Shown here piece by piece: positions 14,122 through 23,177 of a stretch of 38,615 nt of DNA; the stretch's first letter is position 1, and every line of letters begins with the position of its first letter. Origin of the DNA: a bacterium (GTDB lineage Bacteria; Patescibacteriota; Minisyncoccia; UBA6257; 02-FULL-45-10c); contig JAUYKI010000014.1 of assembly GCA_030700025.1 (NCBI GenBank), forward strand, positions 1 through 38,615. The letters are read 5' to 3'. The translations under genes and the position numbers were made by a program. The notes below the pieces were generated by a model. It had not been told where the DNA came from and ran no database searches. It saw nothing but the letters and a program-made list of their open reading frames with translations.

Positions 14122-14138
14122 GCTGAGCAAAGTCGAAG
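14122..14138 (-). repeat. CTTCGAC..GCTCAG repeat copy
   Basis: On the minus strand it reads CTTCGACTTTGCTCAGC. Related words occur at 24048-24063 and 27611-27626. It abuts the 3' end of tmRNA. Confidence 0.45.
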
Positions 14139-14140
14139 TG

Positions 14141-14484
14141 TGGAGGTGGGGAGAGTTGAACTCCCGTCCGAATTATAACCAACAAATTTTCTACAAGCTT
14201 ATTCGAATTGAATTTGGGAATTTAAGCTGAAAATCCGACCAAACGCTTAAACTCCTGTTCTAGTTTGTTTCGCTGTAATACCTAGACTTACTACGGCAAA
14301 GCCTGATGATTGACACCGTTTAGCAGCTTATCAGGCGTTAGCTGAACGATGGCCAACTATGCTAAAGCAAGAGCTGGCTGACGATTAAATAAGTTTGCAC
14401 TTATTAGTTTTGCAAAGATTTACGAGTTTTGCGGCTCGGCTTGCCGATTTGTTAATTGGTAACCCGTCGAAGCCCGTCACCCCC
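14141..14484 (-). ncRNA. ssrA: Transfer-messenger RNA (tmRNA)
   Basis: The minus strand starts GGGGGTGACGGGCTTCGACG, the standard tmRNA 5' end, and ends with a T arm (GAGTTCAACTC) and CACCTCC plus discriminator A. The 7-bp acceptor stem pairs GGGGGTG with CACCTCC (one G-U). CCA is not encoded. The tag frame runs from 14398 to 14357: GCA AAC TTA TTT ... GCT TTA GCA TAG, encoding ANLFNRQPALALA, so the tag would be AANLFNRQPALALA with the charged alanine. It ends in hydrophobic small residues as proteolysis tags do. One-piece tmRNA, 344 nt. It works with SmpB to rescue stalled ribosomes; smpB lies upstream on the same strand. Confidence 0.95.
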
Positions 14485-14643: not shown

Positions 14644-15087
14644 TTATCTTTTCAAAGAGCGGCCGATCTCTCTTTCGGTTTGGCGTTTTTTCAGAGTTTC
14701 CCGCTTGTCCTGTTTTTTCTTGTAGCGCGCCAAAGCGATTTCTACTTTAATTCGGCGGCCTTTATTATACATAGAAATCGGCACAATAGTCAATCCGCCT
14801 TCTTTTGATTTTCCCAAAAGATACCTCAATTCTTTTTTGTTTAAAAGTAATTGGCGGGTTTTGGAAGAGTTGTAGTCCACCGGAGCATTTTTCGGCTGGA
14901 AGGGCGGAATTTCGGAATTCAAAAGTTGCGCGCCTTGCGGACGGACAATGACGTGGGCGCCCGCTAAATTGGCCTGGCCAGCGCGAATGGATTTTACTTC
15001 CTGGCCGGTCAAAACAATGCCCGCTTCAAAGGTTTCCAAAAGATTGTAATCAAAACGCGCTTTTCGATTTTCGGCTAACGGCTTCAT
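14644..15087 (-). CDS. smpB: SsrA-binding protein SmpB
   Basis: 147 residues, normal length. Signatures: NRKARFDYNLLETFEAGIVL with TGQEVKSIRAGQANL, then a strand-rich core, YNKGRRIKVEIALARYKKKQ and the basic C-terminal tail KRETLKKRQTEREIGRSLKR that enters the mRNA channel. It delivers tmRNA to stalled ribosomes; ssrA lies 160 nt downstream. TATAAT ends 6 nt before the ATG and there is no Shine-Dalgarno site. Confidence 0.96.
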   Translation of the reverse strand: MKPLAENRKARFDYNLLETFEAGIVLTGQEVKSIRAGQANLAGAHVIVRPQGAQLLNSEIPPFQPKNAPVDYNSSKTRQLLLNKKELRYLLGKSKEGGLTIVPISMYNKGRRIKVEIALARYKKKQDKRETLKKRQTEREIGRSLKR

Positions 15088-16806: not shown

Positions 16807-18489
16807 ATGACGGAGGCAATTAAAAATCAGATCCAAGGCGCGATAAAAGAGAAAATTGGAATTGAAGTAGTGGCCTCGGAAAAAGAAGACTTTGGACATT
16901 ATTCTACTAATGTCGCTTTTAAGCTTGTCCCGATTTTTAAAAAGGCGCCATTGGAGATTGCTAAGGAGTTAACGCAAAAACTTTCCGGCAACAAAATGTT
17001 TGTGAAAATCGAAGCCGTGGCGCCAGGATTTGTTAACTTTTGGCTGGCGCCGGAATTTTTACAAAGCGAGCTCCAACAGATTTTAAAACAAGGAAAATCC
17101 TTCGGCGAGTTTAATGCCAAGCCATCTCAAAAAATAAATATTGAGTTTGTATCGGCTAATCCTACCGGCCCATTAACCATGGCCAACGGCCGGGGCGGAT
17201 TTTATGGAGACGCGCTTTGTAATGTTTTGAAAAAAGCCGGTCATGATGTGACTAGAGAGTATTATATTAATGATGCGGGTAATCAAACTAAGCTTTTGGG
17301 CGAATCTATTTTGGCGGAATTGGGTATTATTGCAAGACAGGAAAATCATTACAAGGGTGATTATATCAAAAAGTATGCTGAATCGATTTTAAAAAAGAGA
17401 GAAGCCGCAAAAAAGTATGGATTTAGAATAGCTGTAATCGGCGGAATAACAGTAGATCTCGATAAAAATAAAATCTTAGAAGTCGAAAATTTTGAGACGA
17501 TTGGCAAGATTGCACAAACAAATAAATTTGATCCAGTAAAAAAATTTACGGAAGACATAAAAGAATCACTCAAAACTGCTGGCATAAAATTTGATAAGTG
17601 GTTTTCCGAAGAACAGAAACTCCACAAAACCGGAGAAGTTAAAAAAGTTTTGGAGTTTTTGAAGAAAAAAGACCTAGTTAAAGAAAGAGAAGGCGCTTTA
17701 TGGCTTGTCCCGAGCAAAGCCGAAGGGCTTGAAGATGTCGTTTTAATTAAGTCGGACGGTAATCCCACTTATTTTATGGTGGACTTGGCCTATCACCTAA
17801 ATAAGCTTTCCAAACGGAAATTTGATTTAGCGATAGATATTTGGGGCGCGGATCACCACGGCGCGGTGGCGCGGCTGCAAAACGGGATTAAATTATTAGG
17901 AATGGAACCGCGCAAATTGAAGATTATCTTGATGCAATTGGTGCGGTTGATCAGCGGTGGCAAGGAGGTGAAAATGTCCAAGCGGGCGGGAGAGTTTGTG
18001 ACCATGGACGAGCTTTTGAAAGAAGTGGGCGCGGACGTGGCACGATTTTTCTTTTTGATGCATTCGCCGGACACGCATATGGATTTTGACTTGGATCTGG
18101 CAAAAGAGCGGTCGCAAAAAAATCCGGTTTATTATACTCAATACGCGTATGTTCGCGCCATAAATATATTGCGACGCGCAAATCCGAAATCCGAAATCCG
18201 AAATCCGAAACTTAATTTATTGGCTGCTGAATCGGAAATTAAATTAATGCTGGAATTATTAAAGTGGCCGGATGTTTTAGCGGAATGCGCCCAAGATTAT
18301 CAAGTTCAGCGTTTGACTAAATACGCTATGGAGTTGGCGCGAGCTTGGCATAATTTTTATGAAAAAGAGCGGGTGGTGGGAGTAGAGGATGATTTGATGC
18401 AAGCGCGCTTGGCTTTGGTAAAGGCAACAAAAATTATCTTTGAAGATTTATTCGGCGTTTTGGGCGTCAGCAAGCCGAAGAAGATGTGA
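16807..18489 (+). CDS. argS: Arginyl-tRNA synthetase
   Basis: 560 residues, normal length for class I ArgRS. An N-terminal additional domain (residues 1-90) is followed by SANPTGPLTMANGRGGFYGD (116-135), where the HIGH motif should be: canonical LHIGH reads LTMAN (124-127 TMAN), so both histidines are missing. REYYINDAGNQ, ALWL and GADHHGAVARLQ are typical, and KMSKR (389-393) is intact. It then has a C-terminal helical anticodon-binding domain (YAYVRA, LAECAQDYQVQRLTKYAMEL). It charges tRNA-Arg; tRNA-Arg(UCU) is encoded at 37550. A short tandem repeat (18181-18210) is read in frame as NPKSEIRNPK between the catalytic and C-terminal domains. The stop is TGA. Leaderless-type start. Confidence 0.95.
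   Translation: MTEAIKNQIQGAIKEKIGIEVVASEKEDFGHYSTNVAFKLVPIFKKAPLEIAKELTQKLSGNKMFVKIEAVAPGFVNFWLAPEFLQSELQQILKQGKSFGEFNAKPSQKINIEFVSANPTGPLTMANGRGGFYGDALCNVLKKAGHDVTREYYINDAGNQTKLLGESILAELGIIARQENHYKGDYIKKYAESILKKREAAKKYGFRIAVIGGITVDLDKNKILEVENFETIGKIAQTNKFDPVKKFTEDIKESLKTAGIKFDKWFSEEQKLHKTGEVKKVLEFLKKKDLVKEREGALWLVPSKAEGLEDVVLIKSDGNPTYFMVDLAYHLNKLSKRKFDLAIDIWGADHHGAVARLQNGIKLLGMEPRKLKIILMQLVRLISGGKEVKMSKRAGEFVTMDELLKEVGADVARFFFLMHSPDTHMDFDLDLAKERSQKNPVYYTQYAYVRAINILRRANPKSEIRNPKLNLLAAESEIKLMLELLKWPDVLAECAQDYQVQRLTKYAMELARAWHNFYEKERVVGVEDDLMQARLALVKATKIIFEDLFGVLGVSKPKKM
18181..18210 (+). repeat. In-frame ATCCGAA tandem repeat inside argS
   Basis: AATCCGAA is repeated four times and encodes NPKSEIRNPK. 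The same words occur in ileS (20299-20326) and, with extra sequence, twice in uvrC (31512 and 31920). Confidence 0.75.
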
Positions 18490-18605: not shown

Positions 18606-19271
18606 GTGGCGAAAGCGGGATTTGACGGATCGTTTCCGATTTTAAAACGGGAGGGTTTGGGCAATTGGCTGGATAAGTCTTCTTATTTGGAATTAGTTCG
18701 CAGTTTAGAATCTTTGCCGGTTCCCATCAGAAAACTGTTCGGATTTAATCTTCGGGACATTACATATTCTTATTCGTGGCTATTTTCCGGGCCTCCCATG
18801 TCGGCTTTCGTGGACGATAATCTGATGCGAGACCGATCTTCTATGATTATTATTTACGACGGCGCGAAAAAATTCGGTTTTGTAAAATTGCTGGTTCACG
18901 AGTTAAGCCATACGCTGGATGTCCATTCCTATCCGGAAATGATTGGCGTAGTTCCCAAAGATCACTTTCCGGATTGGCTGATCCGGAGCGCTGATGACCG
19001 GCATTGGAAAGATATCTTGAAATCCGAATCGTTGCCGACTGAGTTGACGCGTTACAATCGCGCTTGGGCCTACCGGCCGTCGGAACAATGGGCTTGCCGA
19101 ATGGCTGCCACGATTGCGGTTGATTATTTGGTTTCCGCTGGATTGGTTCCAGGAAATAACATTGTAATGGACCGGAAATTAAGCGCGGATAAATTTAAAT
19201 CCCGCTGGCCGAAGAGCTATAGATTTTTTCGGAGTTATTTGAAAAGAATTTTGGCGCATGCGCCTAAGTAG
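18606..19271 (+). CDS. Putative zincin-type metallopeptidase
   Basis: 221 residues starting at GTG (18606) after GGGGGGTGA. The key motif is LLVHELSHTLDVHSYPEM (residues about 98-115): HELSH is the HExxH zinc-binding helix of zincins. A third ligand could be H112 or a later acidic residue; EQWACRMAATIAVDYL might supply E. There is no signal peptide, so it would act in the cytoplasm unless exported by another route. I cannot assign a peptidase family. It is a single-gene cassette: own promoter, leader of about 60 nt and terminator. A role in processing or as a toxin-like effector is speculation. Confidence 0.65.
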   Translation: MAKAGFDGSFPILKREGLGNWLDKSSYLELVRSLESLPVPIRKLFGFNLRDITYSYSWLFSGPPMSAFVDDNLMRDRSSMIIIYDGAKKFGFVKLLVHELSHTLDVHSYPEMIGVVPKDHFPDWLIRSADDRHWKDILKSESLPTELTRYNRAWAYRPSEQWACRMAATIAVDYLVSAGLVPGNNIVMDRKLSADKFKSRWPKSYRFFRSYLKRILAHAPK

Positions 19272-19667: not shown

Positions 19668-22600
19668 ATGCTTCACAACCTTAAAGAGTTCAAGCCTCAG
19701 GAAATAGAGGAAAAAGTCCTTAAATTTTGGAAAGAAAACCAAATTTTTGAGAAATCTTTAAAGCTCCGGGAGAAATCCAAGAAATTCCGGTTTTTTGAAG
19801 GGCCGCCGACTGCCAATGGGCGGCCGGGAATCCACCATGTTTTAAGCCGGGCTTTTAAAGATGTTATTTTGCGCTATAAAACCATGCAGGGATTTTTTAT
19901 CCGCCGGAAGGCCGGGTGGGATACGCACGGCTTGCCGGTGGAAATTGAAGTAGAAAAAGAACTGGGTTTAAAAAATAAACAGGAAATTGAAAAATTCGGC
20001 ATTGCCGAGTTTAACGAGGGGGCCAAGGCCTCGGTTTGGAAATATAAAGATGAGTGGGAAAAATTAACCGACCGGATCGGATTTTGGCTGGATTTAAAAA
20101 ATCCTTATGTTACTTATTATCCCCAATACATTGAAAGCTTATGGTGGGTTTTTAAAGAAATTGCCAAGCGCGGTTTTTTGAAGCAATCGTTTAAAATCGT
20201 TCCGTGGTGTCCGCGCTGCCAAACTCCGCTTTCCAGCCATGAATTAGGCCAGCCGGGCGTTTACCAAAAAGCCAAAGACCCGTCTATCTTTGTTAAATTC
20301 GAAATCCGAAATCCGAAATCCGAAACAAAAAAACAAAAAAATAAGGAATATCTTTTGATTTGGACCACTACGCCGTGGACTTTGCCTTCAAATGTGGCGG
20401 TGGCGGTTAATCCGCGTTTAACTTATACCAAATATCAAATCGGAAAAGATTTTGTCTGGTCTTTTAATCCTCCGCCTTCGCCCGCCGGAGCTTCGGCAAA
20501 AGAGGGAAGCGACATTGAGGTGGTAGAAAAAATTTCGGGGCAAAAATTAGTCGGCCTGCGTTATGAGCCGTTATTTAAGGTTCCCGGCCCCTGGCTGAAA
20601 AATAAAAAGTTTTTCCGGGTTTATCCGGCGGACTTTGTTTCCACTGAAGAGGGGACGGGATTAGTCCATATCGCCCCGGCTTTTGGCGAAGACGATATGA
20701 ATCTGATTAAGCAATACGAAACCGACTTGGTCGGGAAAATTCCAGTTACCATTGATGAAAAAGGCTTGGTACAAAAGGGTTTGCCCGGAGCCGGAAAGTT
20801 TGTTAAAACCGCCGATAAAGAAATTATTAAAAAGCTGGAAGAACGGGGACTCTTATTAAAGAGCGAGATTATAGAACACGATTATCCGTTTTGCTGGCGC
20901 TGCGGCACCCCGCTTTTATATTTTTCCCGGTTCTCCTGGTTTATTGAAATGAGCCGTTTGCAAAAAGAGTTGCTGGCGAATAACGAAAAAATAAATTGGA
21001 TTCCGGAAAATATTAAAGAGGGGCGTTTTGGCGAATGGCTAAGGGAAATTAAAGATTGGGCAATTTCCCGGAATCGCTATTGGGGCACGCCTTTGCCGAT
21101 TTGGGAATGTTCGCGGTGCGATCACCGGGAAGTGGCGGGCAGTTTGGAAGATTTGGATAATTTGCGATTTTCTCAAAATAATTTTTTTGTCTTGCGCCAC
21201 GGAGAATCGGATCATAATGTCCGGAATGTGATTGCCGCCGGCCCGGAACGCGGGAAAAATATCTCCAAGTTAACAGCCACCGGCGTTAAACAGATTGAGG
21301 CCGCGGCTAAGGATTTTAAAAAACAGCTGGGCAAGAAAAAATTAGATGTAATTTTTGCTTCGCCGTTTTTCCGGACCCAGCAGACTGCTAAGATCGTAGC
21401 TAAAGAGCTGAAGGCGAAAATCATTACCGATAAGCGGTTGGAAGAAATAAACACCGGAGCTTTTAATTGGCGGCCTGTGCCGGATTACCAGAAATTTTTT
21501 GCTAATGATTTGGAAAGGTTTGTAAAAGCGCCGGCTGAAGGGGAAACTTTGGCGGATGTAAAAAAAAGAATGCTGGCGGCGATTTTGGACATTAATTCCC
21601 GATACCAAAATAAAAATATTTTAATTGTCAGCCACGGCGATCCGCTTTGGATGCTGGAGGCCGCGTTGCAAGGAGTGGCCAACGAAGCGACCTTTAAAAT
21701 GGAGTATATAGAAGTAGACGGCGACGTTAAAAAAGTTGAGCTTCATAATTGGCCTTATAACTTAATCACCGCTTCTTTAGATTTGCATCGGCCTTATATT
21801 GATCAGATTTTTTTGAAATGCTCGAAGTGTCAGTCTAAGATGGTTCGGGTAAAAGAAGTGGCGGATGTCTGGTTTGATTCCGGCGCTATGCCGTTTGCCC
21901 AGGACCACTATCCTTTTAGCGGAGCGAAAATAGAGCTTCCCGCCGATTACATTTCGGAAGGTATTGATCAGACTCGCGGGTGGTTTTATACGCTTTTGGC
22001 TATTGCGACCGCGCTGGGCATGAAAACCCCGCCTTATTTGAATGTGATTAGTTTGGGATTGGTTTTGGATAAAAACGGTCAGAAAATGTCCAAGTCTAAG
22101 GGCAACGTGGTCAGCCCCTGGGATGTAATGCAAAAATACGGCGCGGATGCCGTTCGCTGGTATTTTTATACGGTTAATCCTCCGGCGGAACCAAAAAGAT
22201 TTGATGAATTGGAGTTGAGCAAGGTTCTGAGAAAAGTTTTTCACATTATTTATAATTCTTTTGTATTTTTGGATACATATGGAGTTAAGTCGTCAGTTAA
22301 TAGTCACAAGTCATCAGTTAATATATTAGATAAATGGATTTTGGCGAGATTGAGCCAATTAATTTCCGAAGTGACCGCTGATTTTGAAAAATATGAAGTT
22401 GGAGAAGCGGGCCGGCTGATGGAAGGTTTCGTGGATGATTTGTCCCGCTGGTATATCCGCCGTTCGCGCCGGAGATTTCAAAAACCGGATGATCCGCAGG
22501 ATTTAAATTCGGCTTCAGCGGTTTTGCGCCATTGTTTGCTGGCCTTGAGCAAATTATTCGCTCCTTTTACTCCGTTTTTCAGCGAAGCGCTTTATCAGTC

Positions 22601-23177
22601 GTTAGTCGTTAGTCGTGAGTTATCAGTCCATTTAGAAGATTGGCCGAAAGCGGATGACAAAGCTTTGGATTCAGAATTATTGGTTAAGATGGAAGAAATC
22701 CGCCGGTTGGCAAGTTTGGCTTTGGCGTTGCGCGCGGAAAAAGGCTTGAAAGTCCGCCAACCGCTTGGTTCGCTGGAAATCCAGAGCAAGAAATTAACCG
22801 CCCGGGATGAAGAGTTGTTGGATATTTTGAAAGACGAAGTGAATGTTAAAGAAATAAAATTTAATTTCCAGATGAAGGAAGAAATCAATTTAGACCTGAA
22901 TATTACCCCGGAATTGCGGGAAGAGGGCATGGTGCGGGAGTTTGTCCGGTTGGTCCAGGGATTGCGCCAGGATGCCAATTTAGTGCCCAAAGACAGGATT
23001 GTAGTAATGGTGGCGGCTGAGGCCGGAAGAGGGGCTATTTTAGGCAAATACGAGGCCTTAATTAAGAAGGAGGTCGGCGCCCAGGCCCTGGAATTAAAGA
23101 AGTCCGATACGTTTGACGCGGAGCTTAATTCTAAAGTAGACGACCAGCCAATTTGGGTTGGAATTCGTAAAATTTAA
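19668..23177 (+). CDS. ileS: Isoleucyl-tRNA synthetase with an inserted histidine-phosphatase domain
   Basis: 1169 residues. IleRS parts: FEGPPTANGRPGIHHVLSRA (HIGH read as GIHH), WDTHGLPVE, editing domain WTTTPWTLPSN (near 230), GTGLVHIAPAFGEDD, FSRFSWFI, CSRCDHREVAGSLEDL, then after the insert DLHRPYID, KCSKCQSKM, DVWFDSGAMPFAQ, KMSKS (806-810) and a C-terminal anticodon-binding domain. Between about 503 and 690 lies a full histidine phosphatase / phosphoglycerate-mutase-like domain: LRHGESDHN (H511), FFRTQQTAK (R569), LEEINTGAF and IVSHGDPLWM (H656), so all catalytic residues are present. It replaces a normally short linker between the zinc-region strand and DLHRPYID. Three repeat-derived stretches are also read in frame (20299, 22283, 22597). 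It charges tRNA-Ile; the phosphatase substrate is unknown. No Shine-Dalgarno site. Confidence 0.95.
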   Translation: MLHNLKEFKPQEIEEKVLKFWKENQIFEKSLKLREKSKKFRFFEGPPTANGRPGIHHVLSRAFKDVILRYKTMQGFFIRRKAGWDTHGLPVEIEVEKELGLKNKQEIEKFGIAEFNEGAKASVWKYKDEWEKLTDRIGFWLDLKNPYVTYYPQYIESLWWVFKEIAKRGFLKQSFKIVPWCPRCQTPLSSHELGQPGVYQKAKDPSIFVKFEIRNPKSETKKQKNKEYLLIWTTTPWTLPSNVAVAVNPRLTYTKYQIGKDFVWSFNPPPSPAGASAKEGSDIEVVEKISGQKLVGLRYEPLFKVPGPWLKNKKFFRVYPADFVSTEEGTGLVHIAPAFGEDDMNLIKQYETDLVGKIPVTIDEKGLVQKGLPGAGKFVKTADKEIIKKLEERGLLLKSEIIEHDYPFCWRCGTPLLYFSRFSWFIEMSRLQKELLANNEKINWIPENIKEGRFGEWLREIKDWAISRNRYWGTPLPIWECSRCDHREVAGSLEDLDNLRFSQNNFFVLRHGESDHNVRNVIAAGPERGKNISKLTATGVKQIEAAAKDFKKQLGKKKLDVIFASPFFRTQQTAKIVAKELKAKIITDKRLEEINTGAFNWRPVPDYQKFFANDLERFVKAPAEGETLADVKKRMLAAILDINSRYQNKNILIVSHGDPLWMLEAALQGVANEATFKMEYIEVDGDVKKVELHNWPYNLITASLDLHRPYIDQIFLKCSKCQSKMVRVKEVADVWFDSGAMPFAQDHYPFSGAKIELPADYISEGIDQTRGWFYTLLAIATALGMKTPPYLNVISLGLVLDKNGQKMSKSKGNVVSPWDVMQKYGADAVRWYFYTVNPPAEPKRFDELELSKVLRKVFHIIYNSFVFLDTYGVKSSVNSHKSSVNILDKWILARLSQLISEVTADFEKYEVGEAGRLMEGFVDDLSRWYIRRSRRRFQKPDDPQDLNSASAVLRHCLLALSKLFAPFTPFFSEALYQSLVVSRELSVHLEDWPKADDKALDSELLVKMEEIRRLASLALALRAEKGLKVRQPLGSLEIQSKKLTARDEELLDILKDEVNVKEIKFNFQMKEEINLDLNITPELREEGMVREFVRLVQGLRQDANLVPKDRIVVMVAAEAGRGAILGKYEALIKKEVGAQALELKKSDTFDAELNSKVDDQPIWVGIRKI
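20299..20326 (+). repeat. In-frame ATCCGAA repeat inside ileS
   Basis: Tandem GAAATCC encodes FEIRNPKSET in the editing domain region, followed by a lysine-rich run. Same family as argS 18181-18210. Confidence 0.7.
22283..22320 (+). repeat. In-frame GTCAGTTAATAGTCAC-type repeat inside ileS
   Basis: GTTAAGTCGTCAGTTA and AAGTCATCAGTTA are two near copies encoding VKSSVNSHKSSVN, just before the anticodon-binding domain. Confidence 0.55.
22597..22629 (+). repeat. In-frame AGTCGTT repeat inside ileS
   Basis: CAGTCGTTAGTCGTTAGTCG encodes QSLVVSREL within the C-terminal domain; same GTCGTTAG words as other dispersed repeats. Confidence 0.5.

Follow-up and report, generated by a model that had tools for sequence, protein, structure and literature searches.

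A histidine-phosphatase domain with a complete catalytic set inside, or encoded beside, the isoleucyl-tRNA synthetase of Patescibacteria

Introduction

What would a phosphatase do inside an enzyme that charges tRNA? The question is raised by a gene of a genome from Patescibacteria, a large group of very small bacteria that have not been cultured, from which a window of 38,615 nucleotides (the whole stretch of DNA analysed here) was examined. A first-pass annotation, made from the letters of the window alone, had proposed that its isoleucyl-tRNA synthetase (IleRS) contains an intact histidine-phosphatase domain, and that this domain might act on a nucleotide alarmone, on pyrophosphate-like products or on a phosphorylated protein, thereby linking isoleucine charging to signalling. 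It had also stated that no function was known to have been described for such a fusion. A full-text literature search, which covered few subscription papers or preprints, agrees with this, in that it turned up no account of a phosphatase residing within an aminoacyl-tRNA synthetase or next to one.

The host synthetase

The ileS gene (19668-23177; forward strand, as are all features below unless noted) is a single uninterrupted open reading frame encoding 1,169 amino acids, and its product is a type-2 IleRS with an internal histidine-phosphatase domain. The protein scores 903 bits against the NCBIfam ileS model TIGR00392 (cut-off 621), the match consisting of two stretches broken at residue 499. 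It also contains the Pfam domain tRNA-synt_1 (E 1.5e-113) and, at residues 888-1033 (22329-22766), an anticodon-binding domain (Anticodon_1, PF08264; E 3.1e-33). The KMSKS signature is present at residue 806 (22083-22097). In the CP1 editing domain, the threonines T233-T235 (TTTPWTLP; 20364-20372) and their partner D343 (20694-20696) are unchanged in all 55 insert-bearing IleRS compared; CP1 residues of this type have an established editing role in IleRS. The HIGH signature is found in a swapped GXHH form (GIHH, G54-I-H-H57; 19827-19838), the form that is associated with mupirocin hyper-resistance in IleRS2 (PMC10485003).

The AlphaFold2 model of the whole protein has a pLDDT of 90.3 and a pTM of 0.84, and the junctions at the insert are not disordered. 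In Foldseek searches with this model, the best match is the IleRS2 of Priestia megaterium (8c8v; E 2.1e-88, TM 0.72/0.82), ahead of the IleRS1 8c9e (E 1e-55); the Thermus thermophilus IleRS2 (1ile) is matched with E 2.0e-75. The likeness to IleRS2 extends to the whole fold, the CP1 editing domain, KMSKS and the GXHH form, which is known in IleRS2. Unlike these enzymes, the window protein has an additional phosphatase domain of about 190 residues that separates the two halves of its second zinc knuckle, and full-length identity to 8c8v is 31%. Since the ileS model, the class I signatures, the CP1 residues and the structure all agree, the window protein belongs to the type-2 IleRS. Charging of tRNA-Ile is to be expected of it, because the insert-bearing gene is the only ileS found in the window genome, which is 98.7% complete.

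Upstream, argS (16807-18489; Pfam ArgRS domains) lies two small ORFs away from ileS. A 221-aa ORF between the two genes (18606-19271) carries a zinc-protease-like HELSH motif and is matched by no Pfam family. Elsewhere in the window, a tmRNA gene (14138-14484) and smpB (14644-15087) adjoin on the same, reverse, strand.

The inserted phosphatase domain

The first-pass annotation placed the phosphatase at 21174-21740, near the zinc region of the synthetase, and on both points it is borne out. This segment encodes residues 503-691 and is matched by PF00300 (His_Phos_1) at residues 507-679 (E 7.8e-32; 111 bits against a cut-off of 21.7; model positions 2-170 of 194). Modelled alone with AlphaFold2, it folds with a pLDDT of 95.1 and a pTM of 0.91. 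The insertion site lies exactly between the halves of the second CxxC/CxxC zinc knuckle, that is, between C481-x2-C484 (21108-21119; the cysteines are kept in 51 and 47 of 55 relatives) and C718-x2-C721 (21819-21830; kept in 54 of 55). A frameshift or artefact fusion is ruled out by the single open frame and by the recurrence of this architecture across dozens of genomes.

The catalytic residues had likewise been named correctly. They are R510-H511 of the RHGE motif, with H511 as the nucleophile (21195-21200); R569 of the phosphate pocket, in FRTQQT (21372-21374); the catalytic acid E593 in RLEEINTG, named earlier as the glutamate of LEEINTGAF (21444-21446); and H656 of the SHGD motif (21633-21635). 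By sequence, with the PF00300 cut-off passed and a complete R-H/R/E(D)/H set, the insert is a member of the histidine phosphatase superfamily, branch 1.

The closest solved fold is PhoE (1h2e; Foldseek E 9.5e-14), and the nearest folds (PhoE, phosphoserine phosphatase and alpha-ribazole phosphatase) are all small-molecule phosphatases with a helical cap. The insert shares with PhoE and with the phosphoserine phosphatase PspA (4ij5) the fold, the RHG/R/E/H catalytic set and the cap, but identity is 26-27% and the window domain lives inside or beside ileS. None of the named families of this branch that were tried could be assigned. Against the respective NCBIfam cut-offs, the scores were 71.5 bits versus 350 for PspA (phmmer E 1.8e-13), 75.7 versus 162.9 for the alpha-ribazole phosphatase CobC, and 36.9 versus 74.5 for the phosphohistidine phosphatase SixA; for 2,3-bisphosphoglycerate-dependent phosphoglycerate mutase they were 81 versus 225 (dPGM_arch) and 34 versus 81.7 (pgm_1). 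A phage or plasmid origin of the phosphatase was also rejected, as generic phosphatases alone were matched there, at 24-34% identity.

The architecture has its nearest precedents in fusions of RNase H with an acid phosphatase and in IleRS proteins that bear a GNAT domain. The bifunctional RNase H/acid phosphatase of mycobacteria (PRK07238; 82 bits) similarly joins a histidine phosphatase to an RNA-related enzyme, but the fusion is end-to-end with RNase H and not an insertion in a synthetase, and the score is under the cut-off of 326. The annotated model ileS_w_GNAT (NCBIfam NF040702) describes an IleRS to which another catalytic domain has been added; there, however, the added domain is an acetyltransferase, and the window protein scores 301 bits against a cut-off of 1999.

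Distribution and constraint on the active site

In 34 of 40 relatives, the domain is found inside an ileS-type frame. The other six comprise three genomes in which an ileS search found no recognisable full ileS (G003, G008 and G036), two with an insert-less ileS and a free phosphatase (G027 and G037), and one in which ileS is split over two contigs and is without the domain (G023). One genome, G020, has two ileS genes (G020:C8 and G020:C20; L031 and L033), both with the phosphatase insert. Among 113 genomes drawn evenly across the class, and counted by hand from tables, about 77 have the domain in ileS-type frames of at least 550 aa, eight encode a free phosphatase belonging to its subfamily, and at least 18 have an insert-less ileS and neither an inserted nor a free phosphatase of that subfamily. 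The domain is present in other classes of the phylum too.

A scan of 84,980 species with the motif V[SG]HGDPLW returned 124 relatives, of which 80 were kept. The motif came from a closer subset of eight alignment rows, the 31-row alignment having no stretch conserved enough, and the scan is thus limited to members with that motif and biased towards the second catalytic histidine. All 80 are labelled as Patescibacteria groups or plainly as 'bacterium', except for one WOR-3 bin. In that bin (L131; WFRC01000223.1), the genes with matches are nearest to Patescibacteria loci in hand, and it is probably mis-binned.

Of 146 aligned domains, 83 of which came from whole-domain searches without motif selection, all but one have the full catalytic set (145). 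R510-H511 is unchanged in all 146, R569 is invariant, and the catalytic acid is E in 121 and D in 25. H656 is invariant except in the sole incomplete domain, an insert in a valyl-tRNA synthetase (ValRS; L052) that has lost this last histidine. For close pairs (n=7), dN/dS is about 0.06-0.08 in the insert and 0.03-0.08 in the synthetase core, values that are rough, with synonymous sites near saturation. A decayed passenger domain is ruled out by the complete catalytic sets together with these low ratios. Neither of the two outcomes that the first-pass annotation had named as refuting it, an insert absent from all relatives or one whose catalytic residues are lost, is therefore observed.

Separate-gene forms and independent insertions

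The phosphatase also occurs as a gene of its own. Of the 80 scan loci, 69 are fused and 11 free, and ten of the 11 free copies are directly upstream of an insert-less ileS. When loci from other genomes are added, there are 14 such split pairs, with gaps between phosphatase and ileS of -11 to +17 nt; in seven pairs the gap is exactly -4 nt, a 4-nt overlap. In most split-form loci argS is upstream, the phosphatase gene usually being located between argS and ileS. In G103 (L165), sister to the split forms, argS is directly followed by ileS and the phosphatase gene is gone, a natural deletion that is useful as a control. Unlinked phosphatase copies were found at four loci (L035, L036, L067 and L156).

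In the domain tree, many inner branches of which are weak, the free copies are placed inside the clade of inserted domains and not outside it, with SH-aLRT values of 85-96 on the holding branches. In a FastTree phylogeny of the IleRS core, no fewer than 12 to 16 gain or loss events are required to account for the insert. Because the free copies nest in this way and so many changes are needed, the phosphatase has repeatedly become free, disappeared, returned or moved from one IleRS backbone to another, and even so it tends to remain with ileS. Six free phosphatases pair with a distinct IleRS lineage, which forms its own clade and has MGVHH for HIGH and MHKSK for KMSKS. In the loci examined for these synthetases (L129, L131, L135, L137, L143 and L145), all of them found via the phosphatase, its gene immediately precedes ileS.

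Insertions are not confined to one synthetase or to one site. A phosphatase sits at the equivalent position in three ValRS that score above the NCBIfam ValRS cut-offs, namely L049 (which has two of the domains), L052 and L053. Three further ValRS-like proteins, called as ValRS from their sequence, also have a phosphatase domain (L034, L055 and L056). Among IleRS, the family f140 (L042-L047) has one or two tandem phosphatase domains, and in four of its members (L042, L043, L045 and L046) two catalytically complete domains stand in tandem in the zinc-knuckle loop. In the IleRS L048, the phosphatase precedes the anticodon-binding domain, outside the zinc knuckle. This protein (L048:1638-5990, genome G191) has a GNAT acetyltransferase-like insert, with the histidine phosphatase at a second site, and the same genome encodes the ValRS L049 with its two phosphatase domains. 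The ValRS, f140 and L048 domains fall outside the main clade of the domain tree, in which several deep branches are weakly supported. The pattern suggests that the same two enzymes, IleRS and ValRS, have recruited phosphatases repeatedly. As the pairing of phosphatase and IleRS arose more than once and the catalytic residues were kept, it is probably real biology.

Discussion

Beyond the architecture itself, its breadth, the retention of the catalytic residues and the switch between an inserted and a separate gene, all of which are observed, we propose that the window protein is a bifunctional enzyme: an editing-competent type-2 IleRS with a phosphomonoesterase of the PhoE/phosphoserine-phosphatase type, for small molecules, in the loop of its second zinc knuckle. 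Taken as a whole, we regard this explanation as evenly poised between right and wrong, and its parts differ in strength. It is very probable that the phosphatase works by way of a phospho-His511 intermediate and that catalysis is what it is retained for, not service as a structural spacer; from established knowledge of the superfamily, the phosphoryl group would be transferred to His511 and then to water. A job tied to the charging of isoleucine (and valine) is likely, though less firmly so. Judged by the split forms and the independent insertions, selection appears to act on the phosphatase activity as such, in connection with Ile/Val charging, and if so, synthetase and phosphatase would be needed side by side and in matching quantity. 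IleRS and ValRS are both editing synthetases, and the coupling to them hints at a substrate connected with the synthetase reaction or with inhibition of that reaction. More tentatively, the phosphatase may clear phosphate from a small compound that is made by, or blocks, the synthetase. Candidates would be a by-product of nucleotide type that arises in charging and editing, or an inhibitor of the synthetase that bears a phosphate group, and the role would be local housekeeping and not signalling. Against this explanation, the activity is dispensable for some lineages, namely the insert-less class members counted above and G103. In addition, the restriction to isoleucine and valine enzymes could partly reflect a tolerant insertion site, not function.

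Of the alternatives, resistance survives best, although we consider it unlikely. The phosphatase would destroy a phosphorylated (or phosphoramidate) toxin directed against the Ile/Val synthetases and would belong to a protection set that includes the GXHH site. Most fused IleRS have the GXHH/AXHH mupirocin hyper-resistance motif, the L048 IleRS has the GNAT-like insert as well, and the patchy presence and repeated loss of the phosphatase would suit a resistance function. However, the ordinary HXGH also occurs in many phosphatase-bearing IleRS, so that GXHH and the phosphatase are not tied to each other and a general connection to the mupirocin hyper-resistance motif was rejected. Near-universal presence in the order resembles housekeeping more, and no phosphate-bearing IleRS toxin is known to us.

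Somewhat less probable is that an unrelated metabolic phosphatase, for instance a general or phosphoserine-type enzyme, rides with ileS in phosphatase-poor genomes. The four unlinked copies would fit, as would the window genome, which has only one other His_Phos_1 protein. Chance association accords poorly, however, with repeated independent coupling to IleRS and ValRS specifically, or with the tight linkage to ileS in the 14 split forms.

The signalling proposals of the first-pass annotation fare worse. A regulatory protein phosphatase, which might for instance reverse a kinase shut-off of the synthetase itself and so link charging to stress signalling, is improbable. Kinases that inactivate synthetases are known elsewhere, as HipA acts on GluRS, and some branch-1 histidine phosphatases act on proteins. 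Nevertheless, HipA_C was found in none of 41 genomes, which makes a HipA-type reversal unlikely, and Hanks-type kinases (Pkinase) were above the cut-off in two of 41; moreover, the nearest folds of the insert are capped small-molecule phosphatases, and its SixA score is far under the cut-off. Still less credible is an alarmone phosphatase that has (p)ppGpp or a messenger nucleotide akin to it as its substrate and tunes the stringent response to isoleucine supply. RelA_SpoT is present in 26 of the 41 genomes, including the window genome, but it is absent from 15, among them the near-complete, insert-bearing G018, G019, G024, G031 and G032. It is also absent from G035, a near-complete genome whose IleRS and ValRS each bear an inserted phosphatase. 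A RelA/SpoT-made alarmone therefore cannot be a general substrate. As for the pyrophosphate-like products that had also been suggested, enzymes with this phosphomonoesterase fold do not usually act on pyrophosphate. From the proposed link between isoleucine charging and signalling, the coupling to charging stands as plausible, and the split forms, the ValRS insertions and the tandem copies make the case stronger than the first-pass annotation could know; nothing observed here favours signalling. Small-molecule clearance is preferred because the partner enzymes of the signalling readings are often missing.

Finally, that the domain is structural filler, a captured stable surface domain whose chemistry is irrelevant, like the leucine-specific domain of LeuRS, is very improbable: the zinc-knuckle loop is indeed a recurrent insertion site in IleRS and ValRS, but the catalytic residues are kept almost throughout, and the existence of split-gene forms largely refutes it, since an internal structural role is impossible where the phosphatase persists as a separate gene beside an insert-less IleRS.

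Domain additions to synthetases are common; here, the active site is intact, the addition recurs in IleRS and ValRS, and the phosphatase, if unfused, is an overlapping neighbour gene. Tiny genomes that shed most functions have kept it. A phosphatase with an intact site in a core translation enzyme points to an unrecognised phosphorylated compound in branched-chain amino-acid charging, which might arise as a by-product, act as an inhibitor or serve as a control signal, and with which ordinary bacteria would deal in another way. It is conceivable, if somewhat short of probable, that the Ile/Val synthetases of Patescibacteria have several times evolved a third catalytic activity beside charging and editing: a dedicated phosphatase for such an unrecognised phosphorylated by-product or inhibitor, carried as an internal domain or as an adjacently translated partner.
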